NCBI GenBank assembly: GCA_030386875.1
Contig: CM059575.1
Coordinates: 16,640,293-16,704,292 of the forward strand
Source: Morinoia aosen
Lineage: Eukaryota; Arthropoda; Malacostraca; Amphipoda; Talitridae
Length of the DNA: 64,000 nt
Reading direction: 5' to 3'
Shown: positions 17,154 through 62,099 of the stretch, piece after piece
How the letters are laid out: the number at the start of each line of letters is the position of its first letter
Numbering within the stretch: position 1 is the stretch's first letter
Notes under the pieces: generated by a model
Told to the model about the DNA's origin: nothing
Databases searched by the model: none
What the model saw: the letters and a program-made list of their open reading frames with translations, nothing else
Made by a program: the position numbers and the translations under genes

Positions 17154-17165
17154 GGTCGTAGATGT

Positions 17166-23871: not shown

Positions 23872-26800
23872 CCAGCACAGACCGGGGCGGACCACACACA
23901 CACACACAAACACACACTCGCACACCTCATAACCCCAAACATTCACACTCGTACACACACTCCCACACACACACAGACACACATATACACAAATACATGC
24001 CAAGCACACTTTTAAAAATAACCCAAATTAGCCAACACAATCAGATACACCATCGTCTCAAGTCACAAATCGATAAGTATACAGTACATTTTACTCTAAG
24101 CTCTATTTTAACCTTTCAAACATCAAAATGAATTGATTCTCCGACACCATTGCCATTTCAAAACGTAACATGGCCATTTTTACACTTCAAAAATCATTCC
24201 ACAGACGGTGATCTCTCAAATTTCAACGCGTATCTAAGAGACATCGGTTACACTCTTTTCTTTCTGGGAATTTTCTTGGTCTATATCCGAATAACTGAAG
24301 ATATGCGCTGCAGGAGCACAGCTTTGAGGGGTAACTAACATTTTTCATGAGTAACACAACCTCAACAAATCAATCACATCTACTCTTATAAAATGACTAC
24401 ACCAATCACAATTCAACCAATAAGTTCACCAATCACTTCCCAACCAAACCCAAATTAATATAACCAACTCAACCCAACCTAAAATAATCTAACCCAACCT
24501 AGTCTAATGAAACCTAACATAACCAATTTTATCCCAACCTGACTCTATAACCTCATGTATCCAATTCTTTGGTTTAATTTTTAACCACTCATGTTGTATT
24601 CCATTCAACTTAGCGTCCATCCCTTGGTTCTCATCAATTTACACAAAGTCATTTAACCTTTCCTACTCACAATTATATAGCTTCACCTCAAACAAAACTT
24701 AAAATTACATAATTCCCTTATATGAAGCGCGACTGAACTTTCTTCACAATATTATACACAGAATCCTGGGAGAATGATATTTTAATATTACATCACGAAT
24801 TCACCTAAGGTCACAAATGCTTACAAGACTATAAATATGTTCCTTCATTCTACCAGAATACATTACATGTTACCTATAACTAATTTAAATTACATGAGCC
24901 TCATTCCAAATTCTAATTATAGATGCGGTTCACAAATACATTAAATTCTACCAAAGCTATTTCAAATTCCGCCAAAGCCTGACGTAGGGAAATTAGGCTT
25001 CCCATAACCCCCAAAAATTGCCACCTCAGACATCAAAATACATTACTCACCTGCATCAGCGAGAAAAAACCTTCGTTCTTAAAATTCATTTCATACCTTC
25101 AAGAGAAAACAACAATTATCCACCAACTTCGTGTCACATCCAATTACTATCAATACTTTTTCAAACTAACCACAAGAACCAAATATATTCTTGTTCTCAC
25201 GAATAAATCATGTGAATGAGCTGTACATTACCATACATCAGATAGCGTCGCAGTCATTCATGCACAGCCTTTAAATAATCCAATCCTTCTCCAATCTATA
25301 ACAAACAACCATAAATCCTCAATAACATATAAATCATCACCAAAATAAACAAACATCGCAATACCACATCCAAACGAAAGCTAATTCTCGTTTCATACAA
25401 GAACATCGACACCTGTTCATCTTCATTGGGTTCATAATGATGGGACGCGCCGTCGCGCGGTCAAATTCGAAGGTTGAGAAAATGAAATTTGAGTTCTTGC
25501 GCCGCTCTACGAGTGCTACGCACCTCGCAGAGCGGCATAATTGCACCTCTTATATTAGTCACACTCGAGGGGCACGGGATTTACCCTAGAAAAACTTTAA
25601 AACTAAAAAAATGCCATTTCTGTCTCATTTATACACATTTTCAGTGTAGTTACCCCGTACAGTTTACTAACGGGCTTAAAGGCATCAGTCTGTATGGTTA
25701 TGAAAGTATTATCTGCACCGGTTCTCGTCTTTTATGCGTTTTTGCATTGGAAATACCATTTCAATATCCCTCAACGTTTTTGTCTAACTCTTCCTAAATT
25801 TTCCACATGCTTCGTCATTGCACAAGTCGAAATGTCCGACATTGCCACAAAAATAGTTCACAACACGTTCCACTGACGAAATAACGGACAAAACATTTAA
25901 CACAACTTATTTCTCCCTATATCAAACAATTATGAATAAACATAATATAATCAACAACATTCGCACCCTGCTTTTGACTCCGCTTCATATGAGCCCAAAA
26001 TGAATTCTCTACCTGATTTCAAAGTACCCTTCATCGTAAATTTAAACACGCATACAATTTTCGAAAATTACTCATTCACCCCAAAATATCGATAGGTCCA
26101 TTCTCAAAATGTCAGCATAGACAGACATACATATGTACATTGTATCAAAATTTCGAGCATCTACCTGCAATGTACAAAAAAATGATATGCCTAATTCAAA
26201 CTACACTCAGTTGATAACTGAGTTCACCAATGCATCATCATTTACAATGAAAGCAAACCCATTACCTATCAACATAACTCAATATCACTTTCTCCACACG
26301 AAAAAAGTGCTATCGCCTCCCTACATCAGACCGCACGCTTCGTGCAAACTGCAACCATGATCTATGCGAAATGAGTGATTTAGCGAACATCAAATTTAAG
26401 TTTTCGTTCCATGAAGAGACATTGTGCATCTCAAACTAACTGAAAACATGCACTGCTCAAGGGAGAGCTTTCAGGGGTAACTCAAGTAAGAAATTCTGTT
26501 CTGCATTTCCTCAATATTTACATCTTTAAAGACAACATTGAAGCAAAAACGAAGCTTGACATGCATCAAGTGAGTTCTCATTAAAGATTCATTCAAATTT
26601 CGGCATCGAAATAAGTGAAATGACCCATTCCTATAATTTCTAAATAAATTCATGTTCGTCATTTCACCCGTAAATGTTCAATTTACCTCCCGAAAAACAT
26701 AATAGAATCGATCCTTCCATCATATTCAATAGCTTCACTGGTTAACACCGCCTAAACAACTTAGCACCATTTTCTATGTTAAAATGCGAGTTATTTCATA

Positions 26801-29800
26801 TCTTGAATTCTCATCCAGAGGTATTTCCGACTCATGAGCCGATAATATTTCCATGTAGTACCACAAATGTTTCTCAAAAACTCACCGACATATGGAGCTT
26901 TGAACAACGCTTTCGTTTTGTTTTTCAAGTCACTACCAAAAGTTGTACAGTGTCTCAAAATGACTGAACATACCTCTTGATTAAGCACGGCTTCGAGGGG
27001 TAACTCAAGTAAAAAATGCTGTTCCTACTTCTCTCAATATCTAAGTATTTAGGGCAAAGATTCAAGTAACAACGAAGCTTGACATACATAAATGAGTTAT
27101 ACATGAATAGAAAGGAGTTATATCAACAAGTAATAAATATTTAGTATCCATCTTGCTTGGTATCAAGGTCATAAAGGCCATACGCCAGTCCGCGTCTCTC
27201 AGGAGTAATTCGACCATCGAATACCAAATGCAGTTGGAAGTATTAAGAATGCGCATTGTTTTCGTTGCAAACAATAAACACTACAAATAATTACACATAC
27301 CGCAAAAATGGAAGCCAAAATAATACAATTTCTATGATAACTGATAGGTCATTAGTTGCGACAAATTTTTGCGTCGAAAATTAATCACTTTCCATGTTTG
27401 ACCTCCCATTACTTTGCGAATACTATCATGGTCACACCTTCAGCCAAACGAGTAGGTGAATTGTGCGTGAATTTCACTACCCAAAATCCCAATCTCTTCA
27501 ACACCTCCAAGAACTTCCTCTTCCCGACAGACAAGACATTATATTTCAAAATGTTCGAAAATATTACATTAAGGTTAACTCGAGCATTCATTCCTTGCAC
27601 CTTGAATAATCTGGTAACTAATTACAAGCTTTATCTTCCTTAAATTACCATGCATTCTTTCATTAATGTACGGTAGTATGTATTCTCCTAACTATCGAAT
27701 TCTACATTTAAAAGCAATATTTCATCAAAGAGTATACCATATAAATAATTTTCTAAGAATTCCGAAGAAAATTTTTTCGAGGGTTAACAAATCGATTACA
27801 AATATCAGTTATATTTGACGTCAATTGACTTACCTATTACGATTATGGGGACACTTTAGGCCATAGCAGTAGGTGAAACTCTGTGAACATCTTTTACATT
27901 ACAACTTTTACAAGCAGCAGAAGATTTGAGCCTCAAATTCTGTACCTCATTGACATATTGCAATTAGACATGGCCAAGCATAAATACTTTCTCGACTTAG
28001 GCAAAATTTCATCCCAGAACCAAAATTTTTTTTCCCTACCAAAACTTGTTTGAAGTAAAATAATGCTACCATAAGGTAAATCGCCTATTTTAAACACATT
28101 TGCTCTCTATAAAATTTCCTGTGAAACCACTATAAATCCCTGAAATTAATGAATTACGCGTCATGTAAAAAAGTTATAAGAATTTCAAGGTGAAATAAGC
28201 CACTTAGAAGGTTGACTTGCGAGTCCTAATAAATTTATTTCAACTCTAACAACACAGTACAACTCTTAAAAATACGCAAAATTGTCTAGAATAAACCAAA
28301 AATCGGGAAAAACTTTTAACTTCAATAATTCAATTAAATATATTGTTTCGCAATCGAAAACACCACAGCATTAAGTTCATGAAAATGGGCATCTATGTAA
28401 AACCTTTAAACTCAATAAAGTTCCATTTCAGGCCTTAAATTCAGTCATTAAAAAAAATTCGCATTCTGGAGACTTCATTACAACGTGGATCGGTATTCAG
28501 TTTTTGCCCTAGATTTGCCAATTTTCGCGATTCCCCCCTAAGGTTTGATGTTTTTTCAAATTTGAAGAAAAAGTTGAAGGCCTACAACTTTGAGACACGA
28601 GTATCAATCGAAAGATCTCCTCAAGACGCATCTTTCAAGTGATTTTCAGCTCCCTCGAAGGTGAGGAAGTGGGCTTCAGGGGCGAAGGAAAGGCAAAAAT
28701 GGCCTGGAAAAGTGAAAATAACGTCTCACGCTCAAACAAACCCGAAATTCAACCTGCCCAAAAACTTTTGAATGCACGACAAAAAACCGAGCAGAAAATG
28801 TTAAATGAAGTTTTCCGTAGATCGCCCCCATTTTCCAAAAACATGTTCGGAACATTTTTTGGGGGGTGTTGGGGGTTGTGTTTGGAACCATTTTTTGAGA
28901 AAAGTTTCGCTCATGATGAACTGTAAACTTGATAACTTTGAGAAAAAGATTAAAACTAGATCGTATCAAATTTTCAAGTCACAAATCAATCAAACAACGT
29001 CACAACTGGCGGTCGAAAATGACCTTTGAAAAAACGCGTTTTTTTACTTCAACTTTAAAGTTGCGCACCACTCAAGTTTTCTAAGCTGGCACTCTGTAAA
29101 ACTCGCTGGGTATATTACAAAGCTTTCTAAACGAGACTACAAAGTTTGAGAGCCACAGGTATTGCCGTCGAACTCAGGACAAAACTCCCGCCTCACCAAA
29201 ATTGTCCACAAATTTTTAGGAAAACTTTGACCCGAAGTTGTGTGGAAACTTGATCGTTTCGAGAGCCGTTGATTTTATGAGGCGTAGAACTTTTGGAAAT
29301 GTACGAGCTATCAAAGTTTGAAACTTTAAAAGTGCGTGGTTTTCTCAAAAAAATTCTCCAAATTTCGTCAAAATTACCCTAAAAATTTTTCGTCAACTTT
29401 GAGGGGCAAAGAGGGATACTTTTTACGAACGGATCGCAAAATGGCAACGTTGGCGCATGCTCCATTGTTTCGTCTACCACACGCTGAAATTATAGCCGCC
29501 TAGAGCCATTCTATGGGTGTTTGGCAGCAGTTTGAAAATGACCCATTTTGGTCGATTTTTGACCTTTGAACCGCCATTAAAGAAAAAGTTCTCGCCCGAT
29601 CTGAAAGAAAAAAGCTTAGGTTCGTGTCCAAAAGGCCTTTTATGTGCCTGCCAAATTTGAAGGCGCTGCGACGACGCGTTCGAGGGGCTACCCTATTCAT
29701 GGACGACACGTCGGGGTATACACCATTTCGGTGAACGCCAGCGCGGCCCCTAGGGTAAGTGGTGTTCATCCTTCTTCGAATTGGTGCGCGTATGGGTCTT

Positions 29801-29847
29801 GGTTTTTTCACCGGATTATCGCAACGGGTCCGCCGGGCGCGCAGAAA
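23872..29847. repeat. Array unit U1 (~5976 bp)
   Basis: First unit of the tandem array, bounded by CCAGCACAGACCGGGGCGGA at its start and at the start of the next unit. Contents in order: (CA)n tract, CCTAA-like island (24440-24524), hairpin (25501-25536), sub-repeats with GAGGGGTAACTCAAG-type cores (about 24329, 26470, 26993, 27198) and a closing module (about 28200-29847) ending in a CpG-rich block. The first ~400 bp match U4 best. Most of the rest matches U2, and 26770-27300 matches U3. No protein-coding gene is supported. Confidence 0.85.
25501..25536. other. 36-nt hairpin of U1
   Basis: A 13-bp stem (GCCGCTCTACGAG against CTCGCAGAGCGGC, one A-C mismatch) closes a TGCTACGCAC loop that can itself pair TGC with GCA around TAC. 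Confidence 0.75.
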
Positions 29848-29869
29848 CCAGCACAGACCGGGGCGGACC
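29661..29869. promoter_or_regulatory. CpG-rich block at the U1/U2 junction
   Basis: About 25 CpG dinucleotides in 209 bp, in a unit that is otherwise AT-rich. It is almost unchanged at the end of each of U1-U4. It contains a consensus donor-like GTAAGT on + (29755-29760) and is open in several frames on both strands. A promoter or first-exon role is a guess; a TE-derived segment is equally possible. Confidence 0.4.
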
Positions 29870-32800
29870 ACACACACACACACCCACACACACACAAACA
29901 CATCAAAACCCAGACGCTCACACTCCTACACACACTCCCACACCCACAGACACACATATACACATAGACATGCCAAGCACACTTTTAAAAAATAACCACA
30001 ATTGGCCAACACAATCAGATACACCATCGTCTCAAATCACAAACCGATGTGTACAATGTATTTCACTTCAATTTCTATGTTCAACTTTCAAACACCATAA
30101 TCAATTCATTCTCCGACACCATTGCCATATAAAAACGTAACATGGCCATATTTACAGTTCAAAAACCATTCCACAGACGGCGATCTCTCAAATTTCAACG
30201 CGTATCGAAGAGACATTGGCTACACACTGAAGTCTGACATTTCTTTTCTTTCTGGGAATTTTCTTGGTCTATATCCGAATAACTGAAGATATGCACTGCC
30301 GGAGCAGAGCTTTGAGGGGTAACTAACATTTTTCATGAGTAACACAACCTCAACAAATCAATCACATCTACTCTTATAAAATGACTACACCAATCACAAT
30401 TCAACCAATAAGTTCAGCAATCACTTCCCAACCAAACCCAAATTAATATAACCAACTCAACCCAACCTAAAATAATCTAAACCAACCTAGTCTAATGAAA
30501 CCTAACATAACCAATTTTATCCCAACCTGACTTTATAACCTCATGTATCCAATTCTTTGGTTTAATTTTTAACCACTCATGTTGTATTCCATTCAACTTA
30601 GCGTCCATCCCTTGGTTCTCATCAATTTACACAAAGTCATTTAACCTTTCCTACTCACAATTATATAGCTTCACCTCAAACAAAACTTAAAATTACATAA
30701 TTCCCTTATATGAAGCGCGACTGAAACTTTCTTCACAATATTATACACACAATCCTGGGAGAATGATATTTTAATATTACATCACGAATTCACCTAAGGT
30801 CACAAATGCTTACAAGACTATAAATATGTTCCTTCATTCTACCAGAATACATTACATGTTACCTATAACTAATTTAAATTACATGAGCCTCATTCCAAAT
30901 TCTAATTATAGATGCGGTTCACAAATAAATTAAATTCTACCAAAGCTATTTCAAATTCCGCCAAAGCCTGACGTAGGGAAATTAGGCTTCCCATAACCCC
31001 CAATAATTGCCACCTCAGACATCAAAATACATTACTCACCTGCATCAGCGAGAAAAAACCTTCGTTCTTAAAATTCATTTCATACCTTCAAGAGAAAACA
31101 ACAATTATCCACCAACTTCGTGTCACATCCAATTACTATCAATACTTTTTCAAACTAACCACAAGAACCAAATATATTCTTGTTCTCACGAATAAATCAT
31201 GTGAATGAGCTGTACATTACCATACATCAGATAGCGTCGCAGTCATTCATGCACAGCCTTTAAATAATCCAATCCTTCTCCAATCTATAACAAACAACCA
31301 TAAATCCTCAATAACATATAAATCATCACCAAAATAAACAAACATCGCAATACCACATCCAAACGAAAGCTAATTCTCGTTTCATACAAGAACATCGACA
31401 CCTGTTCATCTTCATTGGGTTCATAATGATGGGACGCGCCGTCGCGCGGTCAAATTCGAAGGTTGAGAAAATGAAATTTGAGTTCTTGCGCCGCTCTACG
31501 AGTGCTACGCACCTCGCAGAGCGGCATAATTGTACCTCTTATATTAGTCACACTCGAGGGGCACGAGATTTACCCTAGAAAAACTTTAAAACTAAAAAAA
31601 TGCCATTTCTGTCTCATTTATACACATTTTCAGTGTAGTTACCCCCTACAGTTTACTAACGGGCTTAAAGGCATCAGTCTGTATGGTTATGAAAGTATTA
31701 TCTGCACCGGTTCTCGTCTTTTATGCGTTTTTGCATTGGAAATACCATTTTAATATCCCTCAACGTTTTTGTCTAACTCTTCCTAAATTTTCCACATGCT
31801 TCGTCATTGCACAAGTCGAAATGTCCGACATTGCCACAAAAATAGTTCACAACACGTTCCACTGACGAAATAACGGACAAAACATTTAACACAACTTATT
31901 TCTCCATATATCAAACAATTATGAATAAACATAATATAATCAACAACATTCGCACCCTGCTTTTGACTCCGCTTCATATGAGCCCAAAATGAATTCTCTA
32001 CCTGCTTTCAAAGTACCCTTCATCGTAAATTTAAACACGCATACAATTTTCGAAAATTACTCATTCACCCCAAAATATCGATAGGTCCATTCTCAAAATG
32101 TCAGCATAGACAGACATACATATGTACATTGTATCAAAATTTCGAGCATCTACCTGCAATGTACAAAAAAATGATATGCCTAATTCAAACTACACTCCAT
32201 TGACAACCGAGTTCACCAATGCATCATCATTTACAATGAAAGCAAACCCCATTACCTATCAACATAACTCAATATCACTTTCTCCACACGAAAAAAGTGC
32301 TATCGTCTCCCTACATCAGACCGCACGCTTCGTGCAAACTGCAACCATAATCTATGCGAAATGAGTGATTTAGCAAACATCAAATTTAAGTTTTCGTTCC
32401 ATGAAGAGACATTGTGCATCTCAAACTAACTGAAAACATGCACTGCTCAAGGGAGAGCTTTCAGGGGTAACTCAAGTAAGAAATTCTGTTCTGCATTTCC
32501 TCAATATTTACATCTTTAAAGACAACATTGAAGCAAAAACGAAGCTTGACATGCATCAAGTGAGTTCTCATTAAAGATTCATTCAAATTTCGGCATCGAA
32601 ATAAGTGAAATGACCCATTCCTATAATTTCTAAATAAATTCATGTTCGTCATTTCACCCGTAAATGTTCAATTTCCCTCCCGAAAAACATAATAGAATCG
32701 ATCCTTCCGTCATATTCAATAGCTTCACTGGTTAACACCGCCTAAACAACTTTGCACCATTTTCTATGTTAAAATGCGAGTTATTTCATATCTTTAATTC

Positions 32801-35700
32801 TCATACACAGGCATTTCCGACTCATGAGCCGATAATATTTCCATTTAGTACCACAAATATTTCTCAACCCTCACCGACATATGGAACTTTGAACGGAGCT
32901 TACGTTTTGTTTTTCAAGTCACTATCCAAAGTTGTACAGTGTCTCAAAATGACTGAACATACCTCCTGATTAAGCACGGCTTCGAGGGGTAACTCAAGTC
33001 AAAAATGCTGTTCCTACTTCACTCAATATCTAAGTATTTAAGCCAAAGATTCAAGTAACAACGAAGCTTGACATACATAAATGAGTTATACATTAATAAA
33101 TAGGAGTTATTTAAACAAATAATAACTATTTTGTATCCATCTTGTTGGAATTCCGCAAAAATGGTGAGCAAAATAATCCAATTTCTATCATAACGGATAG
33201 GTCTTCACTTGCGACAAATTTTTCGCGTCAAAAAGTCATCACTTTGCATGTTTGACCTCTCATTACTTTGCGACTACTATCATGGTCACACCTTCAGCCA
33301 TACCAGTACGTTAATTTTGCGTGAATTTCACTAGCCCAAATCCAAATCTCTTCAACACCTCCCAGAAGTTACACTTCCCGACGTACGAGACAAAATATTA
33401 CAAAATGTTCGAAAATATTACATTCAGATAACCTCGAGCATTCATTCCTTGCACCTTGAATAATCTGGTAACTAATTACAAGCTTTATCTTCCTTACATT
33501 ACCATGCATTCTTTCATTAATGTACGGTAGTATGTATTCTCCTAACTATCGAATTCTACATTTAAAAGCAATATTTCATCAAAGAGTATACCATTTAAAT
33601 AATTTTCTAAGAATTCCGAAGAAAATTTTTTCGAGGGTTAACAAATCGATTACAAATATCAGTTATATTTGACGTCAATTGACTTACCTATTACGATTAT
33701 GGGGACACTTTAGGCCATACCAGTAGGTGAAACTCTGTGATATTCTTTTACATTACAACTTTTACAAGCAGCAGAAGATTTGAGCCTCAAATTCTGTACC
33801 TCATTGACATATTGCAATTAGACATCGAAATGGATCCAAATTCTGTCGACTTAGGCAAAATTTCATCCCAGAACCAAAATTTTTTGTCCCTACCAAAACA
33901 TGTTGGAAGTAAAATAATGCTACCATAAGGTAAATCGCCTATTTTAAACACATTTGCTCTCCATAAAATTTCCTGTGAAACCACTATAAATCCCTGAAAT
34001 TAATGAATTACGCGTCATGTAAAAAAGTTATAAGAATTTCAAGGTCAAATAAGCCACTTAGAAGGTTGACTTGCGAGTCCTAATAAATTTATTTCAACTC
34101 TAACAACACAGTACAACTCTTAAAAATACGCAAAACCGTCTAGAATGAACAAAAAATCCGAAAAAACTTTTAAGTTTAATAATTCATTCAAATATATTGT
34201 TTCGCAATCGAAAACATCACAGCATTAAGTTCATGAAAATGGGCATCCATATAAAACCTTTAAACTCAATAAAGTTCCATTTCAGGCCCCAAATTCAGTC
34301 ATTAAAAAAAATTCGCATTTTGGAGACTTCAATACAAGGTGGATTGGTATCCAGTTTTTGCGCTAGATTGGCAAATTTTCGCGATTCTTCCCTAAGGTTT
34401 GATGTTTTTTCAAATTTGAAGAAAAAGTTGAAGGCCTACAACTTTGAGACACGAGTATCAATCGAAAGATCTCCTCAAGACGCATCTTTCAAGTGATTTT
34501 CAGCTCCCTCGAAGGTGAGGAAGTGGGCTTCAGGGGTGAAGGAAAGGCAAAAATGGCCTGGAAAAGTGAAAATAATGTCTCACGCTCAAACAAACCCGAA
34601 ATTCAACCTGCCCAAAAACTTTTGGATGCACGACAAAAAACCGAGCAGAAAATGTTAAATGAAGTTTTCCGTAGATCGCCCCCATTTTCCTAAAACATGT
34701 TCGGAACATTTTTTGGGGGTGTTGGGGGTTGTGTTCGGAACCATTTTTTGAAAAAAGTTTTGCTCATGATGAACTGTAAACCTAATAACTTTGAGAAAAA
34801 GGTTGAAACTAGGTCGTATCAAATTTTCAAGTCACCAATCAATCAAACAACGTCACAACTGGCGGTCGAAAATGACCTTTTAAAAAACGCGTTTTTTTAC
34901 TTCAGCTTTGAAGTTGCGCACCACTCAAGTTTTCTGAGCTGTCACTCTGTAAAACTCGCTGGGTATATTACAAAGCTTTCTAAACGAGACTACAAAGTTT
35001 GAGAGCCACAGGTATTGCCGTCGAACTCAGGACAAAAGTCCCGCCTCACCAAAATTGTCCAAAAATTTTTAGGAAAACTTTGACCCGAAGTTGTGTGGAA
35101 ACTTGATCGTTTTGAGAGCCGTTGATTTTATGAGGCGTAGAACTTTTGGAAATGTACGAGCTATCAAAGTTTGAAAGTTTAAAAGTGCGTGGTTTTCTCA
35201 AAAAAATTCTCCAAATTTCGTCAAAATTACCCTAAAAATTTTTCGTCAACTTTGAGGGGCAAAGAGGGATACTTTTTACGAAGGGATCGCAAAATGGCAA
35301 CGTTGGCGCATGCTCCATTGTTTCGTCTACCACACGCTGAAATTATAGCCGCCTAGAGGCATTCTATGGGTGTTTGGCAGCAGTTTGAAAATGACCCATT
35401 TTGGTCGATTTTTGACCTTTGAACCGCCATTAAAGGAAAAGTTCTCGCCCGATCTGAAAGAAAAAAGCTTAGGTTCGTGTCCAAAAGGCCTTTTATGTGC
35501 CTGCCAAATTTGAAGGCGCTGCGACGACGCGTTCGAGGGGCTACCCTATAAATGGACGACACGTCGGGGTATACACCATTTCGGTGAACGCCAGCGCGGC
35601 CCCTAGGGTAAGTGGTGTTCATCCTTCTTCGAATCGGTGCGCGTATGGGTCTTGGTTTTTTCACCGGATTATCGCAACGGGTCCGCCGGGCGCGCAGAAA
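29848..35700. repeat. Array unit U2 (5853 bp)
   Basis: Near-identical to U1 through most of its middle. It lacks about 160 bp present in U1 (27140-27300) and U3, and joins CATCTTG to GGAATTCCGC near 33139. CCTAA-like island at 30429-30513, hairpin at 31490-31525. The frame of the closing module carries an in-frame TAA near 34691. Confidence 0.85.
31490..31525. other. 36-nt hairpin of U2
   Basis: Same sequence and same single A-C mismatch as in U1. Confidence 0.75.
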
Positions 35701-35722
35701 CCAGCACAGACCGGGGCGGACC
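35514..35722. promoter_or_regulatory. CpG-rich block at the U2/U3 junction
   Basis: Same block as 29661-29869 with only a few substitutions. Role unproven. Confidence 0.4.
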
Positions 35723-38700: not shown

Positions 38701-41700
38701 TATTTCCATGTAGTACCACAAATATTTCTCACAAACTCACCGACATATGGAGCTTCGAACAACGCTTTCGTTTTGTTTTTCAAGTCACTACCAAAAGTTG
38801 TACAGTGTCTCAAAATGACTGAACATACCTCTTGATTAAGCACAGCTTCGAGGGGTAACTCAAGTCAAAAATGCTGTTCCTACTTCACTCAATATCTAAG
38901 TATTTAAGGCAAAGATTCAACTAACAACGAAGCTTGACATACATAAATGAGTTATACATGAATAGAAAGGAGTTATATAAACAAGTAATAACTATTTTGT
39001 ATCCATCTTGCTTGGTATCAAGGTCATAAAGGCCATACGCCAGTCCGCGTCTCTCAGGAGTAATTCGACCATCGAATACCAAATGCAGTTGGAAGTCTTA
39101 AGAATGCGCTTTGTTTTCGTTGCAAACAATAAACACTACAAATAATTACAGATACCGCAAAAATGGGGGGCAAAATAATCACATTTCTATCATAATGGAT
39201 AGGTCTTCACCTGCGACAAATTTTTCGCGTCAAAAATTAATCACTTTGCATGTTTGACCTCTCATTACTTTGCGACTACTATCATGGTCACACCTTCAGC
39301 CATACCAGTACGTTAATTTTGCGTGAATTTCACTAGCCAAAATCCAAATCTCTTCAACACCTACCAGAAGTTACACTTCCCGACGTACGAGACAAAATAT
39401 TACAAAATGTTCGAAAATATTACATTCAGATAACCTCGAGCATTCATTCCTTGCTTCTTGGATAATCTGGTAAATAATTACAAGCTTTATCTTCCTTACA
39501 TTACCATGCATTCTTTCATTAATGTACGGTAGTATGTATTCTCCTAACTATCGAATTCTACATTTAAAAGCAATATTTCATCAAAGAGTATACCATTTAA
39601 ATAATTTTCTAAGAATTCCGAAGAAAATTTTTTCGAGGGTTAACAAATCGATTACAAATATCACTTATATTTGACGTCAATTGACTTACCTATTACGATT
39701 ATGGGGACAATTTAGGCCATACCAGTAGGTGAAACTCTGTGAACATCTTTTACATTACAACTTTTACAAGCAGCAGAAGATTTGAGCCTCAAATTGTGAA
39801 CCTCATTCACATATTGCAATTCGACATGGCCAAGCATAAATACTTTCTCGACTTGGGCAAAATTTCATCCCAGAACCAAAATTTTTTTCCCTACCAAAAC
39901 TTGTTGGAAGTAAAATAATGCTACCATAAGGTAAATCGCCTATTTTAAACACATTTGCTCTCTATTAAATTTCCTGTGAAACCACTATAAATCCCTGAAA
40001 TTAATGAATTACGCGTCATGTAAACAAGTTATAAGAATTTCAAGGTGAAATAAGCCACTTAGAAGGTTGACTTGCGAGTCCTAATAAATTTATTTCAACT
40101 CTAACAACACAGTACAACTCTTAAAAGTACGCAAAACCGCCTAGAATGACAAAAAAATCAGGAAAAACTTTGAACTTCGACAATTCATTTAAATATAATG
40201 TTTTGCAATCGAAAACCACACAGCACCAAGTTCATGAAAATGGGCAGCCATATAAAACATTTAAACTCAATAAAGTTCCATTTCAGGCCCCAAATTCAGT
40301 CATTAAAAAAAATTCGCATTCTGGAGACTTCATTACAAGCTGGATCGGTATCCAATTTTTGCGCTAGATTTGTCAATTTTCGGGATTCCTCCCTAAGGTT
40401 TGATGTTTTTTAAAATTTAAACAAAAAGTTGAAGGCCTACAACTTTGAGACACGAGTAACAATCGAAAAATCTCTTCAAGACGCATCTTTCAAGTGATTT
40501 TCAGCTCTCTCGAAGGTGAGGAAGTGGGCTTCAGGGGCGAAGGAAAGGCAAAAATGGCCTGGAAAAGTGAAAATAATGTCTCACGCTCAAACGAAGCCGA
40601 AATTCAACCAGCCCAAAAACTTTTGAATGCACGACGAAAAACCGAGCACAAAGTGTTAAATGAAGTTTTTCGTAGGTCACCCCCATTTTCCAAAAACATG
40701 TTGGGAACGTTTTTTGGGGGTGTTGGGGGTTGTGTTTGGAACTATTTTTTGAGAAAAGTTTTGCTCATGATGAACTGTAAACTTGATAACTTTGAGAAAA
40801 AGGTTAAAACTAGGTCGTATCAAATTTTCAAGTCACCAATCAATCAAACAACGTCAGAACTGGCGTTCGAAAATGACCTTATAAAAAACGCGTTTTTTTA
40901 CTTGAACTTCAAAGTTGCGCACCACTCAAGTTTTCATAGCTGGCACTCTGTAAAACTCGCTGGGTATATTACAAAGCTTTCTGAACGAGACTACAAAGTT
41001 TGAGAGTCACAGGTATTGCCGTCGAACTCAGGACAAAACTCCCGCCTCACCAAAATTGTCCCAAATTTTTTAGGAAAACTTTGACCCGAAGTTGTGTAGA
41101 AACTTGATCGTTTCGAGAGCCGTTGATTTCATGAGGCGTAGAACTTTTGGAAATGTACGAGCTATCAAAGTTTGAAAGTTTAAAAGTGCGTGGTTTTCTC
41201 AAAAAAATTCTCCAAATTTCGTCAAAATTACCCTAAAAATTTTTCGTCAACTTTGAGGGGCAAAGAGGGGTACTTTTTACGAACGGATCGCAAAATGGCA
41301 ACGTTGGCGCATGCTCCATTGTTTCGTCTACCACACGCTGAAATTATAGCCGCCTAGAGGCATTCTATGGGTGTTTGGCAGCAGTTTGAAAATGACCCAT
41401 TTTGGTCGATTTTTGACCTTTGAACCGCCATTAAAGGAAAAGTTCTCGCCCGATCTGAAAGAAAAAAGCTTAGGTTCATGTCCAAAAGGCCTTTTATGTG
41501 CCTGCCAAATTTGAAGGCGCTGCGACGACGCGTTCGAGGGGCTACCCTATTCATGGACGACACGTCGGGGTATACACCATTTCGGTGAACGCCAGCGCGG
41601 CCCCTAGGGTAAGTGGTGTTCATCCTTCTTCGAATCGGTGCGCGTATGGGTCTTAGTTTTTTCACCGGATTTTCGCAAAGGGTCCGCCGGGCGCGCAGAA

Positions 41701-41701
41701 A
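35701..41701. repeat. Array unit U3 (6001 bp)
   Basis: The first third is clearly more diverged from U1/U2 (many substitutions over 35900-37500). From about 38450 onward it is close to U1. CCTAA-like island at 36292-36373, hairpin at 37358-37393. The closing module has an uninterrupted 169-codon frame (40494-41003, GTG start) that I do not regard as a gene. Confidence 0.85.
37358..37393. other. 36-nt hairpin of U3
   Basis: Stem GCCACTCAACGAG against CTCGTTGAGCGGC. The pair at stem position 8 is A-T, where U1 and U2 have T-A. One mismatch at position 4. Loop unchanged. Confidence 0.75.
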
Positions 41702-41723
41702 CCAGCACAGACCGGGGCGGACC
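41515..41723. promoter_or_regulatory. CpG-rich block at the U3/U4 junction
   Basis: Same block, a few substitutions. Role unproven. Confidence 0.4.
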
Positions 41724-43330
41724 ACACACACACACAAACACACACTCCCACACCTCATAACCCCAAACATTCACACTCGTACACACACTCCCACACACAC
41801 ACAGACACACATATACACAAATACATGCCAAGCACACTTTTAAAAATAACCACAATTAGCCAACACAATCAGATACACCATCGTCTCAAGTCACAAATCG
41901 ATAAGTATACAGTACATTTTACTCTAAGCTCTATTTTAACCTTTCAAACATCAAAATGAATTGATTCTCCGACACCATTGCCATTTCAAAACGTAACATG
42001 GCCATTTTTACACTTCAAAAATCATTCCACAGACGGTGATCTCTCAAATTTCAACGCGTATCTAAGAGACATCGGTTACACTCTTTTCTTTCTGGGAATT
42101 TTCTTGGTCTATATCCGAATAACTGAAGATATGCGCTGCAGGAGCACAGCTTTGAGGGGTAACTAACATTTTTCATGAGTAACACAACCTCAACAAATCA
42201 ATCACATCTACTCTTATAAAATGACTACACCAATCACAATTCAACCAATAAGTTCACCAATCACTTCCCAACCAAACCCAAATTAATATAACCAACTCAA
42301 CCCAACCTAAAATAATCTAACCCAACCTAGTCTAATGAAACCTAACATAACCAATTTTATCCCAACCTGACTCTATAACCTCATGTATCCAATTCTTTGG
42401 TTTAATTTTTAACCACTCATGTTGTATTCCATTCAAGTTAGCGTCCATCCCTTGGTTCTCATCAATTTACACAAAGTCATTTAACCTTTCCTACTCACAA
42501 TTATATAGCTTCACCTCAAACAAAACTTAAAATTACATAATTCCCTTATATGAAGCGCGACTGAAACTTTCTTCACAATATTATATACAGAATCCTGGGA
42601 GAATGATATTTTAATATTAAATCACGAATTCACCTAAGGTCAAAAATGCTTACAAGACTATAAATATGTTCCTTCATTCTACCAGAATACATTACATGTT
42701 ACATATAACTCATTTATATTACATGAGCCTAATTCCAAATTCTAATTATACATGCGGTTCAAAAATATATGAAATTCTACCAAAGCTATTTCAAATTACG
42801 CTAAAGCCTGACGTAGGGAAATTAGGCTTCCCATAACCCCCAAAAATTGCCACCTCAGACATCAAAATACATTACTCACCTGCATCAGCGAGAAATAACC
42901 TTACGTTATTAAAATTAATTTCAAACCTTCAAGAGAAAACAACAAATATCCGCCAACTTCGTGTCACATCCAATTACTATCAATACTTTTTCAAACTAAC
43001 CACAAGAACCAAATGTATTCTTGTTCTCACGAATAAATCACGTGAATGAGCTGTACATTACCATACATCAGATAGCGTCGCAGTTATTCATGCAGAGCCA
43101 TTAAATAATCCAATCCTTCTCCAAACTATAACAAACAACCATAAATCCTCAATAAAATATAAATCATCACCAAAATAAACCAACATCGCAATACCACATC
43201 AAAACGAAAGCTAATTCTCGTTTCATACAACAACATCGACACCTGTTCATCTTCATTGGGTTCATAATGATGGAACGCGCCGTCGCGCGGTCAAATTCAA
43301 GGGTTGAGAAAATTGAATCTAACTTCTCGA

Positions 43331-43366
43331 GCCGCTCAACGAGTGCTACGCACCTCGTTGAGCGGC
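43331..43366. other. 36-nt hairpin of U4
   Basis: Stem GCCGCTCAACGAG pairs perfectly over 13 bp with CTCGTTGAGCGGC. Loop identical to the other units. Confidence 0.78.
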
Positions 43367-45432
43367 ATAATTGCAGCTCTGATATTAGTCATACTCGAAA
43401 GGCACTGCATTCACCTTCGAATCACTTTGAAACTCTGAAAAATGTCATTTCTGTCTCATTTTTACCCATTTCCAGTGTAGAGACCCCCTACACTTTACTA
43501 ACGGCCTTAAAGGTATCAGTGTCTATTGTTATGAAAGTATGATCTCCAGCGATTTTCGTCTTCCTTGCGATTTTGCATTGGAAATAGCATTTTAATATCC
43601 CTCAACTTTTGTCGAACTCTTCCTACATTTTCCACATGCTTGGTCATTGCACAAGTCGAAATGTCCGAAATTGCCTCAAAAATAGTTCACAACACGTTCC
43701 ACTGACGAAATAACGGACAAAACATCTAACTAAACTCATTTCCCTATATATCTAACAATCATGAATAAACATAATTCATTCACCAACATTGACACCCTGC
43801 TTTTTATTCCGCTTCATATGAGCCCAAAATGAATTCTCTAGCTCATTTAAAAGTACCCTTAATCGTAAATTGAAACATGCATAGAAATTTCGAAAATTAC
43901 TCAGTCACCCTAAAATATCGATAGGTCAGTTCTCAAAATGTCAGCATAAACAGACATACATATGTACATTCTATCAAAATTCCGAACATCTACCTGCAAT
44001 GCACAAAAAAATGATATGCCTAATTCAAACTACACTCCATTGATAACCGCGTTCACCAATGCATCATCATTTACAATGAAAGCAAACCCATTACCTATCA
44101 ATATAACTCAATATCCCTTTCTCCACACGGAAAAAATTGCTATCGCCTCCCTACATCACGCCGCACGCTTCGTGCAAACTGCTACCATGATCTAAGTGAA
44201 ATAAGTGATTTCTCGAACATCCAAATTCAATTTTCTTTCCAAGAAGAGACATTGTGTATCTCAAAATAACTGAAAACATGCACTGCTCCAGGAAGAGCTT
44301 TGAGGGGTAACTCAAGTAAGAAATCCTTTTATGCATTTACTCAATATTTACATCTTTAAAGCAAACATTGAAGCAAATACGAAGCTTGACATACATCAAG
44401 TGAGTTCTCATTAAAGATTCATTCAAATTTCGGCATCGAAATAAGTGAAATGAGCCATTTCTATAATTTCAATATATGAATTCATGTTCGTGATTTCAAC
44501 CCGTAAATGTTCAATTTACCTCCCGAAAAACATAAAATCGATCCTTCCATCATATTCAATACCTAGACTGGTTTAACACCGCCCAAACAGCTTATCACCA
44601 TTATCAACGTTAGAATGCGAGTTGTATCACGTCATTAACTTCTTCCAAAACAGGTCTTTCATGATTCATGAACTGATAAATTCCCTTCCCTTACCACAAA
44701 TTTTCCTCGGTAAATCACCTACATGTAGAACCCTTTACAAAGTCTGCATTATTTAGTTAAAGTCAGTACAACAATTTCCAGCGTACACCCCAAAATTACC
44801 GAACATATACCGAACCAAAGCAAAGGTTTGATGGGTAACTCAAGTAAAAAAATGCTGCTTTTACGTCACTCAATATCTAAGTATATGAGGCAAACATTAA
44901 AGTAACAACGAAGCTTGACATACATAAATGAGTTATACATTAATAGTAACGACTTATATCAACAAATAATAACTATTAAGTATCCATCTTGCTTGGTATC
45001 CATACCATCAGGGCCACGGCAGTCCGCGTCTTTGAGGAGTAATTGGACCATCGAATAAACCTTTGAGAAAGTAATAAACCTACGAAATGTATAATTTCTC
45101 TTTGTATTACGAAATTTGGCGAGTTCTCATCTTTTGAAATTTGCGTATCATGTTCATTTCCATTAGACAATGTTAAAAACTTCTTTTCAAGTTTCGTTTC
45201 ATTAAAGAAACGTGACACTTTCCACTTTTAAAAACTTATGTAATGTTTTTGTATCTATTTCATGAAAACCTCATGTAACACGTCACCGTCCGAAATGACT
45301 GCAGTGTCACAGAAGCATGTTATTCTCTTACCAATGACATATAATCAACAAGTATCCCATTTAAATAATTTTCTATTAATTAGAAAGACAATTTTTTTAG
45401 GGTTAACAAATCCATTCAAAATATCAGTTATA

Positions 45433-45598
45433 CAGGGTGTTTCAAAAATACACGGCATAATTTCAGGTATGTATTTCCCACATGTAGACAATCAAAATAG
45501 TTCATTACAACATATGTCCGGAAATGCTTCATTTCCGAGTTATGGCCTTCACAACATTGAAATTCACCGGAACGTTTTTCTTTCCGCAGGTCGTTGCC
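45433..45598 (+). repeat. Left terminal inverted repeat, 166 bp
   Basis: Matches the right repeat at 165 of 166 positions; the difference is CAGGTATG here against CAGGCATG in the right copy read inward. Confidence 0.92.
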
Positions 45599-45687
45599 GT
45601 CAAAGGACACATTAAGAGGGCACTCTGACAGATCATTCCTAGGCGAAGGTTAAATTCAGTGTTGTGTTTGGCGTTCGACTGTGTGTC

Positions 45688-46755
45688 ATGTACACAAATC
45701 AGGAGCTGGCAGAGATGCACTTGATCTACGGTAAGGCAGACGGCAATGCTGCGCTGGCTCGTCGTTTGTACCAGGAGAGGTACCCACAGCGACAATGTCC
45801 AGATCGGAAGACATTTGTAAGTCTCCATCAGCGTCTGTGCGAGTATGGAAAATTTGACTCTCCTGGATTGGGAAGGGGACGACCAAGATCTACAACTCCA
45901 GAAGAACAGGAGGAGATTCTGGAGATTGTGAACAGAACTCCTTCTGTCAGCACACGAAGGTTAGCGTTGCAAGTGAATGTTCCCCATACGACTGTCTGGA
46001 GACTGCTGAAAGAGTATCAATTGTATCCTTACCATTTGCAACGTGTACAGGCGCTGTCACCAGCAGATTACCCTGCACGAGTTAGGTACTGTCAGTGGTT
46101 CTTGCAGCAATGTGCTGCAAATCCGAACTTTCCTGCCTTAGTATTATTTACAGATGAAGCACAGTTCACACGAGATGGCATAACAAATCTCCACAATCAG
46201 CATGTATGGGCGTATGAAAACCCAAATGCAACTGTTGTATCTCATCACCAGGTGCGGTTCTCCCTCAACATGTGGGCCGGTATCATTGGTGATCGGTTAG
46301 TTGGACCCCATGTACTTGTAAACAGACTTACGGGGCAGGCGTACACAAACTTCCTGGAAAACATCATACCTGATGTTTATGACGACACTCCACTGATCGA
46401 TCGTCAGCACGCTCACTTCTTGCATGACGGCGCTCCTGCACACTTCAGTCGTACGGCTCGCCGGTACTTGGATCGAAGATTTCCTGATCGATGGATAGGT
46501 AGAGGTGGCCCAATTGCTTGGCCTCCACGCTCACCTGATCTGAACCCTCTCGATTTCTACTTGTGGGGCCATTTAAAATCATTGGTTTATTCGTCTCCGG
46601 TGCCTGATTTGGAATCCCTTCGGAATCGAATTGTGGCACGCTCTGAGGACATACGCAACATTCCTGGAGTGTGGGATCGTGTTCGCAGGTCAATGAGACA
46701 TCGATGTGAGGTCTGTATTCAAGCAGGAGGTGGTCATTTTGAACATCTTCTGTAA
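45688..46755 (+). CDS. Tc1/mariner-superfamily transposase with DUF4817-like N-terminus, 355 aa
   Basis: It should cut and paste the surrounding element by binding its inverted repeats and cleaving at TA sites in the nucleus. Residues 1-55 resemble the DUF4817 helix-turn-helix (YTNQELAEMHLIYG). Residues 75-115 look like a second helix-turn-helix ending TTVWRLLKEYQLYPY. The catalytic triad is D156 (LFTDEAQF), D247 (HDGAPAHF) and D284 (PRSPDLNPLDFYLWG), with 36 residues between the last two. The sequence GRGGPIAWPPRSPD is typical of this insect lineage. The start is ATG 45688; an in-frame GTG 24 bases upstream extends the frame but is not expected as a eukaryotic start. There are no stops, frameshifts or introns, so the gene seems intact. 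A promoter is probably in the left inverted repeat, not identified. Confidence 0.9.
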   Translation: MYTNQELAEMHLIYGKADGNAALARRLYQERYPQRQCPDRKTFVSLHQRLCEYGKFDSPGLGRGRPRSTTPEEQEEILEIVNRTPSVSTRRLALQVNVPHTTVWRLLKEYQLYPYHLQRVQALSPADYPARVRYCQWFLQQCAANPNFPALVLFTDEAQFTRDGITNLHNQHVWAYENPNATVVSHHQVRFSLNMWAGIIGDRLVGPHVLVNRLTGQAYTNFLENIIPDVYDDTPLIDRQHAHFLHDGAPAHFSRTARRYLDRRFPDRWIGRGGPIAWPPRSPDLNPLDFYLWGHLKSLVYSSPVPDLESLRNRIVARSEDIRNIPGVWDRVRRSMRHRCEVCIQAGGGHFEHLL

Positions 46756-46756
46756 T

Positions 46757-46922
46757 GGCAACGACCTGCGGAAAGAAAAACGTTCCGGTGAATTTCAATG
46801 TTGTGAAGGCCATAACTCGGAAATGAAGCATTTCCGGACATATGTTGTAATGAACTATTTTGATTGTCTACATGTGGGAAATACATGCCTGAAATTATGC
46901 CGTGTATTTTTGAAACACCCTG
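46757..46922 (-). repeat. Right terminal inverted repeat, 166 bp
   Basis: Begins one base after the transposase stop codon (TAA, 46753-46755) and ends at CACCCTG before the TA duplication. Confidence 0.92.
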
Positions 46923-48770
46923 TATATGAGGTCCTTTACTTACTTATTACGATGATGCGGACACTTCAACATTAGTTGTAACATCTTTGTAGTTGTAACA
47001 TCTTTCACATTACAACTTCTACAAGCAGCAGAAGATTTGAGCCTCAAATTCTGAACCTCAATGAGGTAATGCAAATGGAAATCGAGATGCGTCAAAATTT
47101 TCGGGACTTGGAGAAAAATTGATCGTAGATCCGAAATTTTTTTTCCATACCATGACATGTTGGAACTGAAATAATCCTGCCATAAGGTAAATCGCCTATT
47201 TTAAACACATTTGTTCTCTATAAAATTTCCTGTGAAACGAATATGAACACTCTAAATTCATGAATTTCGCGTCATGTAAAAAATTTATAAGAATTTCAAG
47301 GTGAAATAAGCCACTTAGAAAGTTGACTCGCGAGTCCTAATAATTTTATTTCAACTCTAAGAACACAGTTCAACTCTTAAAAGTACGCAAAACCACCTAG
47401 AATGACAAAAAAATCAGGAAAAACTTTCAACTTGAACAATTCATTTAAATATAATGTTTTGCAATCGAAAACATCACAGCATAAAGTTCATGAAAATGGG
47501 CATCTATATAAAACCTTTCAACTCAATAAAGTTCCATTTCAGGCCCCAAATTCAGTCATTAAAAAAAATTCGCATTTTGGAGACTTCATTACAAGCTGGA
47601 TCGGTATCCAATTTTTGCGCTAGATTTGTCAATTTTCGGGATTCCTCCCTAAGGTTTGATGTTTTTTCAAATTTAAACAAAAAGTTGAAGGCCTACAACT
47701 TTGAGACACGAGTAACAATCGAAAGATCTCCTCAAGACGCATCTTTCAAGTGATTTTCAGCTCCCTCGAAGGTGAGGAAGTGGGCTTCAGGGGCGAAGGA
47801 AAGGCAAAAATGGCCTGGAAAAGTGAAAATAATGTCTCACGCTCAAACGAAGCCGAAATTCAACCAGCCAAAAAACTTTTGAATGCACGACAAAAAACCG
47901 AGCAGAAAATGTTAAATGAAGTTTTTCGTAGGTCACCCCCATTTTCCAGAAACAGCTTTGGAACGTTTTTTGGGGGTGTTGGGGGTTGTGTTTGGAACCA
48001 TTTTTTGAGAAAAGTTTCGCTCATGATGAACTGTAAACTTGATAACTTTGAGAAAAAGGTTAAAACTAGGTCGTATCAAATTTTCAAGTCACCAATCAAT
48101 CAAACAACGTCACAACTGGCGTTCGAAAATGACCTTATAAAAGACGCGTTTTTTTACTTGAACTTCAAAGTTGCGCACCACTCAAGTTTTCATAGCTGGC
48201 ACTCTGTAAAACTCGCTGGGTATATTACAAAGCTTTCTGAACGAGACTACAAAGTTTGAGAGTCACAGGTATTGCCGTCGAACTCAGGACAAAACTCCCG
48301 CCTCACCAAAATTGTCCCAAATTTTTTAGGAAAACTTTGACCCGAAGTTGTGTGGAAACTTGATCGTTTCGAGAGCCGTTGATTTCATGAGGCGTAGAAC
48401 TTTTGGAAATGTACGAGCTATCAAAGTTTGAAAGTTTAAAAGTGCGTGGTTTTCTCAAAAAAATTCTCCAAATTTCGTCAAAATTACCCTAAAATTTTTT
48501 CGTCAACTTTGAGGGGCAAAGAGGGATACTTTTTACGAAGGGATCGCAAAATGGCAACGTTGGCGCATGCTCCATTCTTTCGTCTACCACACGCTGAAAT
48601 TATAGCCGCCTAGAGCAATTCTATGGGTGTTTGGCAGCAGTTTGAAAATGACCCATTTTGGTCGATTTTTGACCTTTGAACCGCCATTAAAGGAAAAGTT
48701 CTCGCCCGATCTGAAAGAAAAAAGCTTAGGTTCATGTCCAAAAGGCCTTTTATGTGCCTGCCAAATTTGA

Positions 48771-48980
48771 AGGCGCTGCGACGACGCGTTCGAGGGGCTA
48801 CCCTATTCATGGACGACACGTCGGGGTATACACCATTTCGGTGAACGCCAGCGCGGCCCCTAGGGTAAGTGGTGTTCATCCTTCTTCGAATTGGTGCGCG
48901 TATGGGTCTTGGTTTTTTCACCGGATTATCGCAACGGGTCCGCCGGGCGCGCAGAAACCAGCATAGACCGGGGGCGGACA
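48771..48980. promoter_or_regulatory. CpG-rich block at the U4/U5 junction
   Basis: Same block with one extra G in GACCGGGGGCGG. It is followed by the diverged partial unit U5. Role unproven. Confidence 0.4.
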
Positions 48981-49940
48981 ACACACACACCCACACACAC
49001 ACACACACCTCAATACCCAGACGCTCACACTCTACACACACTCCCACACACACAGACACACATATACACATACACATGTAGAGCACACTTAAAAAAATAA
49101 CCACAATTGGCCAACACAATCAGATACACCATCGTCTCAAATCACACAACGATATGTGCAATGTCTTTCAATTCAAATTCAATGTTGAACTTTCAAACAC
49201 CAACATCAATTCATTTTTCGACACCATTAACAAATACCAAGCATAAAATTGACCTGACAACATATTTACAGGTCAAAAATCATTTCACACACCTATTTTT
49301 ATCAATAACACATCCTCAACAAACCTCATAAAATGGAAACTTCTCCTACGAATTGACTACACCACTCACAATCCAACGAATTAGTTTACCAATCACTCCC
49401 CCAACTAACTCACACGAAAATAACAAACTCAACCCAACCTGAACTAATCTAACCCAACCTAGTCTAATCTAACCTAAGATAACCTATTTTACTATCACCT
49501 GACTTCATAACCTAATGTACCCTATTTTCTGGTTTAATTTTTGAACACTCTTATTTTACTCCATTTAACTTACCATCCATCCCTTCTTTCTCATCAATTC
49601 ATCCTAAGTAATTTCACCTATCCTACACAAAATGCAATACCTTCACCGAAATCAAAACTTCCAATTACCTAAATCCTTAATATGAAGCGCGACTGCAAGT
49701 GTCTTATCAATATTCTTAACAGAGTCGTGAGAGAATGAAATTTGAATATCAAATCCCGAATTAACCTAAGGTCGAACATGTTAAAAACCCTATCAATATG
49801 ATCGTTCATTCGCCCACAATTCATTAAATGTTACCTTCTACCAAGTTCAATAGCATGAGCCTCATTCAAAATTTTAATCCTACATGCGTTTTACAAATAA
49901 ATGACATTCTTTCAAAGCTATTTCAAATTCCCCCAAAGCT
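48958..49940. repeat. Partial, diverged array unit U5
   Basis: Follows the U4 closing module with the same start motif and (CA)n tract, then the CCTAA-like island at 49425-49484 and sequence alignable to about the first 980 bp of a unit. Divergence is higher than between U1 and U2. Homology ends at the GC-rich segment beginning near 49940. Confidence 0.7.
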
Positions 49941-50879: not shown

Positions 50880-51205
50880 ATTATATTACCAGTTTGTTTA
50901 AGCTTCCCTACCCGCAACAAATGCGATCGAAAAAGAGGAAGAAGAGAGTCACCATTTAGTATTGAGTTCAGGTAACGCGGAATCTATGCACAAAGAGCAT
51001 ACAAACAGTTTGTTCAGAAAGAAGTTCGTGAAACAAGATCCAAGTTTAAGAAGAGAGTCTTAGGTAATGAAGCACACAACACCAGTGAACCGAAAACAAA
51101 ATGTTCATTAACATAACACCTACAATTTCATTTCAACAAATGAGGCTTACCTAACTATGACGTCAGGGTCTTACATTCTGCCCCTGGAAGCCCTAATCCC
51201 ATACA
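50880..51205 (+). repeat. Dispersed ~350-bp repeat, diverged copy D
   Basis: Aligns with copies at 718 and 60350 through AAGCTTCCCTACCCGCAACA, GAAACAAGATCCAAG and an end like CTTACATTCTGCCCCTGG. Many G-to-A-type differences from the other copies. Confidence 0.55.
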
Positions 51206-51849
51206 CACAATGGTTGTATCGACCTGACTGAATACATTTTCCACATATCATTAATTCAAACAATTCAATATTCCTATACGAATGTCTACAACCACGCACC
51301 GACAGCCTCCGCATTTTGATCCCAGCATGAATGTTAAACCTATTCCTAAGGGATTTCCAAATAATGTCAAGTCATTATTTCCCGAAAACGAACAAGTTTT
51401 GAGATTTCTGTCACTTGACAAGAACGTTTTACTCGACGTAATTATGCATATAGTTCAAATCAGTGCATCGAATCACGTAAGACCCTGTATATTACAAATT
51501 CAAGTGAAATTACATGAATACCTCTTCCTGAGTTCATTCCCGTGCAAATCTACAAAGTTAAGAAATGACTCAATATTACTCAACACTTTCTATAAAGTCA
51601 CTTCGTACAAACCCAAATCTACTTATTCTAACTCAGACTTGTGTCAATATTAATGGTTCAACACGAAACTGCTCCCCTAAATACCCATCTGCACACAATT
51701 ATCATGAATATCACGTCAGACTTTCAATATTATAATCATTACGTGTACACGAATTGTTATTCACGATATTATACATTCATTTCTAAATCATTCCTAAATA
51801 AATTCCTTAATTACAAACACAATTTAGCCTCACTGATGTACATCAGACA

Positions 51850-56284: not shown

Positions 56285-56570
56285 AGAAAAAACCTTTCCA
56301 CCATATAAAGAGAACAACACCATTTAATATGCAAAATAAAGCTACGCAGAATCTATGCGGAACGACCTTACTTCCCATTAATTGAGAAGACAATTATGGA
56401 CAAAAACAATAAAATAATATATTTACAGTACGTAGCGATGAACAGGACAGCAATCAACCGAAAAGAGGTGGTCCCTAACATAACAACATTTCATTCCAGC
56501 TAAAATAAGGCCTACCAAACTATCAGCTCGGGACCTCACACATTGTCTCACTCGGAGTGCTAGTTATCAT
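56285..56570 (+). repeat. Dispersed ~350-bp repeat, diverged copy F
   Basis: Shares GAATCTATGCGGAACG, ACAGGACAGCAATCAACC, GGTGGTCCCTAACATAAC and the end CAGCTCGGGACCTCACA with the other copies. Confidence 0.5.
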
Positions 56571-62090: not shown

Positions 62091-62099
62091 GCAGTATAC

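Follow-up and report, generated by a model that had tools for sequence, protein, structure and literature searches.

A probable non-autonomous, Helitron-like element with a self-recreated target site in head-to-tail arrays of Morinoia aosen

Described rolling-circle elements and the array in the window

The closest described systems are rolling-circle transposons and the arrays that they or other transposons can form. Helitron2/Helentron elements, DINE-1 and HINE are described as inserting at a TT target that is left unmodified and as carrying inverted repeats near both ends, which in HINE elements measure 12-15 bp, while DINE-1 has an internal microsatellite and includes non-coding forms (PMC4067079). 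The Fusarium elements FoHeli1 and FoHeli2, which are of the Helitron2 type, are given as using TNAT|T targets, with joined-end evidence for FoHeli1, in an account that also lists tandem Helitron insertions in print for bat, Drosophila, rice and maize (PMC5148889). Helraiser is described with a 3' end CTAG, de novo ends CTTG and precise head-to-tail circles, and the HUH (Rep) enzymes of rolling-circle transposons are said there to cleave single-stranded DNA only (PMC4778049). Arrays of plant centromeric Helitrons consist, in the summary of PMC12628747, of truncated copies, many with multiple 5' ends and a single 3' end, and the same source summarises the work of McGurk and Barbash on Drosophila TE dimers, in which insertion-site preference seeds tandem arrays.

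We analysed a stretch of 64,000 nucleotides (the window) on contig C20, positions 16640293-16704292, of the 1.99-Gb, 29-contig genome of Morinoia aosen. Self-comparison resolved a head-to-tail array at 23872-49940 made of four full units and one partial unit, all on the plus strand. The original prediction had proposed a periodicity of about 5.9 kb, which is borne out by off-diagonals at 5.85-6.0, 11.8 and 17.8 kb, and at 7.25, 13.25 and 19.1 kb across an inserted transposon; the four full lengths that it gave agree with ours within 6 bp. Unit 1 (23872-29847) spans 5976 bp, unit 2 (29848-35700) 5853 bp, unit 3 (35701-41701) 6001 bp and unit 4 (41702-48957) 5758 bp plus a 1498-bp DDE transposon insertion, with pairwise identities among the four of 88.7-96.3%. 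The diverged partial unit expected after them was found at 48958-49940 (unit 5, 983 bp, 77-79% identity) and ends about 1.1 kb in from the left end.

Most of the internal parts anticipated for the unit could also be recognized, while the hairpin that we describe below lies at the junctions. A (CA)n tract and a CCTAA-like island, the latter a set of short related repeats inside the unit, are present in all five units and internal sub-repeats in the four full ones, and the expected CpG-rich unit end corresponds to a rise in G+C, peaking at about 45%, close to where the units end. Searching the assembly for further copies, as had been suggested, showed that the units of the window array are also present at many other places, and a local assembly artefact is therefore unlikely.

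The DDE transposon inside unit 4 (45429-46926, plus strand) is not part of the element. It matches DUF4817, HTH and DDE_3, sits at a TA-rich site and has 177-bp inverted ends that are 98% alike and a 370-aa open frame (45643-46755); it looks young.

Ends, copies and target of the unit

The left end of the unit is marked by a motif at 29848-29871 (plus strand), CCAGCACAGACCGGGGCGGACCAC, which is followed by the (CA)n tract, and the right end by a 20-base motif at 29828-29847 (plus strand), GTCCGCCGGGCGCGCAGAAA. The genome contains 1391 occurrences of the first 16 bases of the left-end motif (base 7 being C or T) and 469 exact copies of the right-end 20-mer (base 14 being R); the reversed pattern gave no match in either case. 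An exact left end directly abuts 328 of the 469 exact right ends, forming tandem junctions. At the junction at 29825-29872, the minus strand reads GGTCCGCC...CTGG|TTTCTG...GGCGGACC, and the same joint is found at 35700/35701, 41701/41702 and 48957/48958; one junction elsewhere (L012) has an extra T. The inverted repeat GGTCCGCC/GGCGGACC, 7-8 bp long, closes a hairpin with the joint inside, whose DNA fold has an energy of -12.4 kcal/mol (z -2.5), a value reached by 2 of 200 shuffles. Neither single end folds better than its own shuffles (z -0.29 and 0.80), the former value belonging to the 53 nt of the 3' end on the minus strand (-1.5 kcal/mol).

A 601-base piece of the unit gave 1707 first-look candidates in the genome, and the 40 of these that were scored showed 91-100% identity and were spread over many contigs. 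Most genome copies are known by their ends alone, and our conclusions on arrays and flanks rest on 20 places of 10 kb, fetched from among the best matches. Nine of these 20 hold a single unit between host flanks (L010, L016, L017, L018, L020, L021, L022, L024 and L027), and the ends of these solo copies are identical save for point variants, reading CCAGCA(C/T)AGACCGGGG... and ...GTCCGCCGGGCGC(A/G)CAGAAA. When the first 12 listed left ends that had no listed neighbour were inspected by eye, 10 had an exact right end 5.75-7.5 kb away, so full-length copies are common.

We joined the 70-base flanks of eight solo copies and searched the genome for the corresponding empty sites. For five of them (L010, L017, L020, L024 and L027), all 140 bases were matched by 140 genome bases at 98-99% identity; for L016, L018 and L022, no empty site was found among the 40 matches scored, 35 of the 40 being the L020 site. 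Since the empty sites are of equal length, insertion is precise, with a duplication of at most 2 bp (AA): no host bases are lost, and none are duplicated beyond at most two A's, which are common to the left flank and the right end of the element. The flanks of L020 (3795-3864 and 9633-9702) belong to an abundant host repeat, with empty copies at 97-99% in 35 of the 40 scored matches.

The sequence around the insertions follows a strict rule. AA stands directly before 1367 of the 1391 left ends, the 24 exceptions including unit 1 of the window, whose left host flank reads ...AATTAT, and YNAR stands directly after 459 of the 469 right ends (absent at 10); among right ends that are not at exact junctions, 131 of 141 have YNAR. 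Outside the array, the background frequencies in the window are 11.5% for AA, 7.8% for YNAR and 0.9% for AAYNAR. The 459 YNAR sites divide into 431 CNAG and 28 TNAA, which leaves none for CNAA or TNAG, and the target can be written AA|CNAG or AA|TNAA, with bases 1 and 4 always complementary. Because the CNAG total includes the junctions, which read CCAG, flanks other than CCAG that were read directly make a cleaner test. There are 34 of these, 27 from 64 listed right-end flanks (the other 37 being CCAG) and 7 further ones, and they comprise 22 C..G, 12 T..A and no mixed pairs (Fisher p = 1.8e-9), although some of the 34 insertions may share a repeated host target and so represent fewer independent events. 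The motif was found post hoc, which at such strength hardly matters.

The minus-strand sequence of the element is R|TTTCTG...GTGCTGG|TT. At the 131 non-junction YNAR sites, TT is preceded by G in 103 cases and by A in 28, and the G class may include junctions with a variant left end. With few exceptions, the unit inserts precisely between AA and YNAR without duplication beyond AA, the exact position of the cut being ambiguous by two bases owing to the A's. Insertion into AA|YNAR leaves AA|CCAG at the left edge and AAA|YNAR at the right edge, so that the left end (CCAG) and the right end (CAGAAA) of the element recreate the target at both edges.

The original prediction had offered two readings of the array, an amplified non-coding locus or an amplified non-autonomous element. 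The exact termini, the roughly 140 exact right ends with no exact left end directly beside them, the precise empty sites and the strict target motif uphold the second of these and speak against the first.

How the target may be read, and the place of the unit among Helitrons

These features lead us to regard the unit as, probably, a non-autonomous mobile element of 5.8-6.0 kb that uses a precise, self-recreated target and is mobilized in trans by a rolling-circle enzyme of the Helitron type. We infer that this enzyme is a nickase (HUH Rep, Helitron-type) that acts on single-stranded DNA. In minus-strand terms the target becomes CTNG|TT or TTNA|TT; the 3' end of the element itself, CTGG|TT, obeys this rule, so a single nickase cutting after YTNR and before TT might suffice: with one rule for the 3' end and the target, one nicking activity could both free the ends of the element and open the target. 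Much as at a rolling-circle origin, the nick site would lie within the hairpin into which the joined ends fold.

The complementarity of bases 1 and 4 asks for a further explanation, the simplest being that the two bases pair within a folded single-stranded target. DNA tetraloops with a two-base loop, for instance CTTG and TTTA, are known. We therefore put forward, tentatively, that the unit may belong to a distinct rolling-circle group whose nickase reads its target as a folded strand and needs the base 1-base 4 pair. If this is true, the complementarity at 459 of 459 sites is a genome-scale covariation footprint of single-stranded target choice, and the strictness of the covariation turns into a testable prediction on how the enzyme reads DNA. 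Among the papers that we searched, judged by title and the start of the abstract, we recognized neither such covariation in a Helitron target nor this unit.

The same ends could be produced if circular copies were integrated by a serine or tyrosine recombinase, as in Crypton-, DIRS- or IS607-like elements, at a short core such as AA. The AA found on both sides of nearly every insertion would then be a 2-bp overlap, and the lack of a longer target duplication and the precision of the tandem junctions would follow as well, but such a recombinase does not by itself predict that target bases 1 and 4 should be strictly complementary, and we consider this origin unlikely. We give even less weight to an RNA-mediated route in which a long non-coding RNA ending in AAA is copied by target-primed reverse transcription at a CTNG|TT nick. 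A right end in AAA at a fixed nick motif fits this route, and template switching could yield the mosaic units described below; against it stand the absence of a target duplication beyond AA, the prevalence of full-length copies (10 of the first 12 listed left ends lacking a listed neighbour), the absence of a poly(A) tail at the ends that were read and the absence of codon periodicity.

A rolling-circle enzyme acting in trans, the explanation we favour, would have to come from outside the unit, in which we found no coding signal. Across 23 aligned units, 3 of 47 windows reached p<0.05 for codon periodicity, with about 2.4 expected, and 87% of the indels, scored against unit 2, have lengths that three does not divide. 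Rfam gave no match in the window at gathering thresholds, ARAGORN (bacterial code) detected no tRNA in the window, and a Pfam scan of three ORFs lying in the array but not in the transposon gave no match; a gene or RNA gene in the unit was rejected on these grounds. A viral source was likewise rejected, as IMG/VR contains no exact match to either end motif (22 bases on the left).

Helitron Rep sequences are present in the genome, with 150 scored matches of 289 candidates, and a source of the enzyme may therefore exist. The 20 Rep loci that we compared with the unit, 3.5 kb each, showed no homology to it, and end-like strings occurred at only one of them (L035), with 6 mismatches; the domain is flanked in these loci by about 1.5 kb on each side, so that the termini of the elements would mostly lie outside. 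By eye, none of the listed Rep matches lies near a listed end on the contigs that both listings cover. None of the 20 Rep loci was tied to the ends of the unit as an autonomous partner.

Compared with Helitron1, the 3' end of the unit fits CTRR, reading CTGG on the minus strand, where left ends were located by a motif that starts with CCAG; the CTAG and CTTG of Helraiser fit the CTNG seen here, and the precise head-to-tail joints resemble Helraiser circles. Unlike in Helitron1, the target is mostly G|TT rather than A|T (22 G and 12 A in the 34 flanks), and there is no hairpin 10-12 nt from the 3' end (53 nt folded against shuffles). At the 5' end, R|TTTCTG on the minus strand, either the TC follows a TT, which could belong to the host or to the element, or the register is displaced. 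The likeness to Helitron2/Helentron, DINE-1 and FoHeli elements lies in the unmodified T-rich target, inverted repeats near the ends, the microsatellite, joined ends (as in FoHeli1), tandem insertions and non-coding content, and the TT insertion is matched by the AA before 1367 of the 1391 left ends. The inverted repeat of the unit is, however, 7-8 bp long and lies 13 and 14 nt from the ends, against the asymmetric 12-15 bp of Helitron2/HINE elements; the 3' palindrome of the Helitron2/Helentron/HINE group is lacking, the 53 terminal nt having no stable fold, and target bases 1 and 4 are strictly complementary. As for a RepHel protein, expected in a Helitron or in a partner with matching ends, the unit shows no coding signal, and the 20 Rep loci, with their flanks of about 1.5 kb, are untied to its ends. 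With part of the Helitron features present, others absent and the partner enzyme untied, the unit, most likely a non-autonomous rolling-circle element, is best filed as Helitron-like and not as a member of either Helitron1 or Helitron2/Helentron.

Self-targeting and growth of the arrays

Since both edges of an insertion are targets again, copies can stack head to tail into satellite-like arrays, and self-targeting predicts the single orientation of the arrays that is seen in the listed places. The history of individual units was traced through pairs with near-complete identity. Along its entire length, unit 2 matches L026, a unit on contig C13 with other neighbours, at 99.8% identity, and three units on different chromosomes, L009 (C24), L012 (C5) and L011 (C19), are 99.9-100% identical, again with different neighbours. 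In both sets, the first and last 600 bp are 100% identical. Just outside these units, identity is 86-97% upstream, where array units lie on both sides, and 81-93% downstream between units, and it is 45-48% where one side is host DNA. Identity falls outside the unit in 7 of the 8 pairs tested, the exception being L013/L012 (95-99% upstream of the unit against 94% in part of the unit).

Identical single units with different neighbours, whose identity stops at the unit ends, mean that insertion adds single units to arrays. The best pairs, and unit 2 with L026 in particular, show that single complete units inserted at junctions build head-to-tail arrays. The relationships between neighbours point the same way: of 17 neighbour pieces compared with 23 full units, just 2 have the adjacent unit as their nearest match, although 8 of the 17 span only 300-385 bases, some margins are small and some pieces, such as that upstream of L011, are almost as close to the adjacent unit as to their best match. 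As a rule, a unit and its neighbour are not each other's closest relatives among those compared, so part of the array's growth, at the least, came through insertion of units of outside origin, and local amplification alone does not account for it.

Other processes have also left their mark on the units. Within the window array, the closest relative of unit 1 is unit 2, in a tie with L026, and that of unit 3 is unit 1; units are mosaics of blocks of about 99% identity whose partners change along the unit and include array mates; units 1 and 4, for example, have such a block in common over their first 900 bp. Gene conversion, recombination or template switching therefore acts as well.

The largest listed arrays consist of 5.48-kb units and lie on C2 at 38.13-38.31 Mb and on C3 at 7.79-7.90 Mb, the former with 31 listed left ends over 187 kb in one orientation. 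According to the end listings, these units have the left end in common with the window unit, and nearly all are without the right end tested. At two of the fetched places (L014:6156-10000 and L028:1-3849), the upstream neighbours share about 75% identity with the unit along a part of their sequence, differ from it in their right end, ...GGTCCGCCCGCGCAAAAA, and are joined exactly to units of the window family; these neighbours may be a sister family of the 5.48-kb type.

Rolling-circle read-through might deliver arrays ready-made, as multi-unit concatemers. Xiong et al. (2016; summarised in PMC12628747) reported this for centromeric Helitrons of plants, and it is possible for the large 5.48-kb arrays, but the fetched arrays share single units between places and not pairs: L009 and L013 share a unit at 98.5% and have upstream neighbours at 95.1%, unit 2 and L026 differ on both sides, and co-transposed multi-unit blocks were looked for in the fetched arrays and none were seen. 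We judge this origin very unlikely. Least probable of all is an ordinary satellite, formed when unequal crossing-over or gene conversion multiplies a non-coding locus where it lies. Such a satellite could account for the long one-orientation arrays such as that on C2, for the blocks of about 99% common to the window units and for units 1 and 3 having an array mate as their closest or joint closest relative, but not for solo copies that have exact ends and for which precise empty sites exist, for identical units on different chromosomes whose neighbours differ and whose identity stops at the unit ends, or for an adjacent unit being the closest relative in only 2 of 17 pieces. A classical satellite would be found in tandem only and grow by local amplification, whereas here there are solo copies and relatives lie mostly elsewhere. 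Local amplification as the sole mechanism is contradicted, and it can act on existing arrays, especially those of 5.48-kb units.

Insertion of single units into a self-recreated target, the reading that we prefer, sets these arrays beside two described cases. Like the plant centromeric Helitrons (Xiong et al. 2016), they are long arrays of what are probably rolling-circle elements, but the complete units read here keep both ends and their neighbours are often of different lineages. As in the TE dimers of Drosophila, a site preference sets copies side by side and seeds tandem arrays; here, unlike there, the two ends of the element itself make up the target, and the arrays reach tens of units. 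In the literature searched, we found no full-length, mixed-lineage arrays formed through a self-recreated target. If our reading is true, each insertion makes two targets from one, and the element converts itself into satellite arrays.

The transition from transposon to satellite is often deduced from decayed remnants. In this genome the intermediates can be read directly, as solo insertions, exact junctions and identical units in arrays on different chromosomes.

Several other repeats lie in the window outside the array. A 1.1-kb stretch is tandemly duplicated at 58283-60507 with 96.7% identity, and parts of it have relatives at 729-1064, 50885-51220 and 56441-56582. Two 221-bp direct repeats, 98.6% identical and 1.1 kb apart, lie at 3360-4710, and their outer edges show no obvious sign of a target duplication. 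Nested inverted and direct repeats of 118-292 bp at 62089-62923 give that region a foldback-like structure, and an open frame at 16413-17204 encodes RING and B-box zinc fingers, as in a TRIM-like protein.
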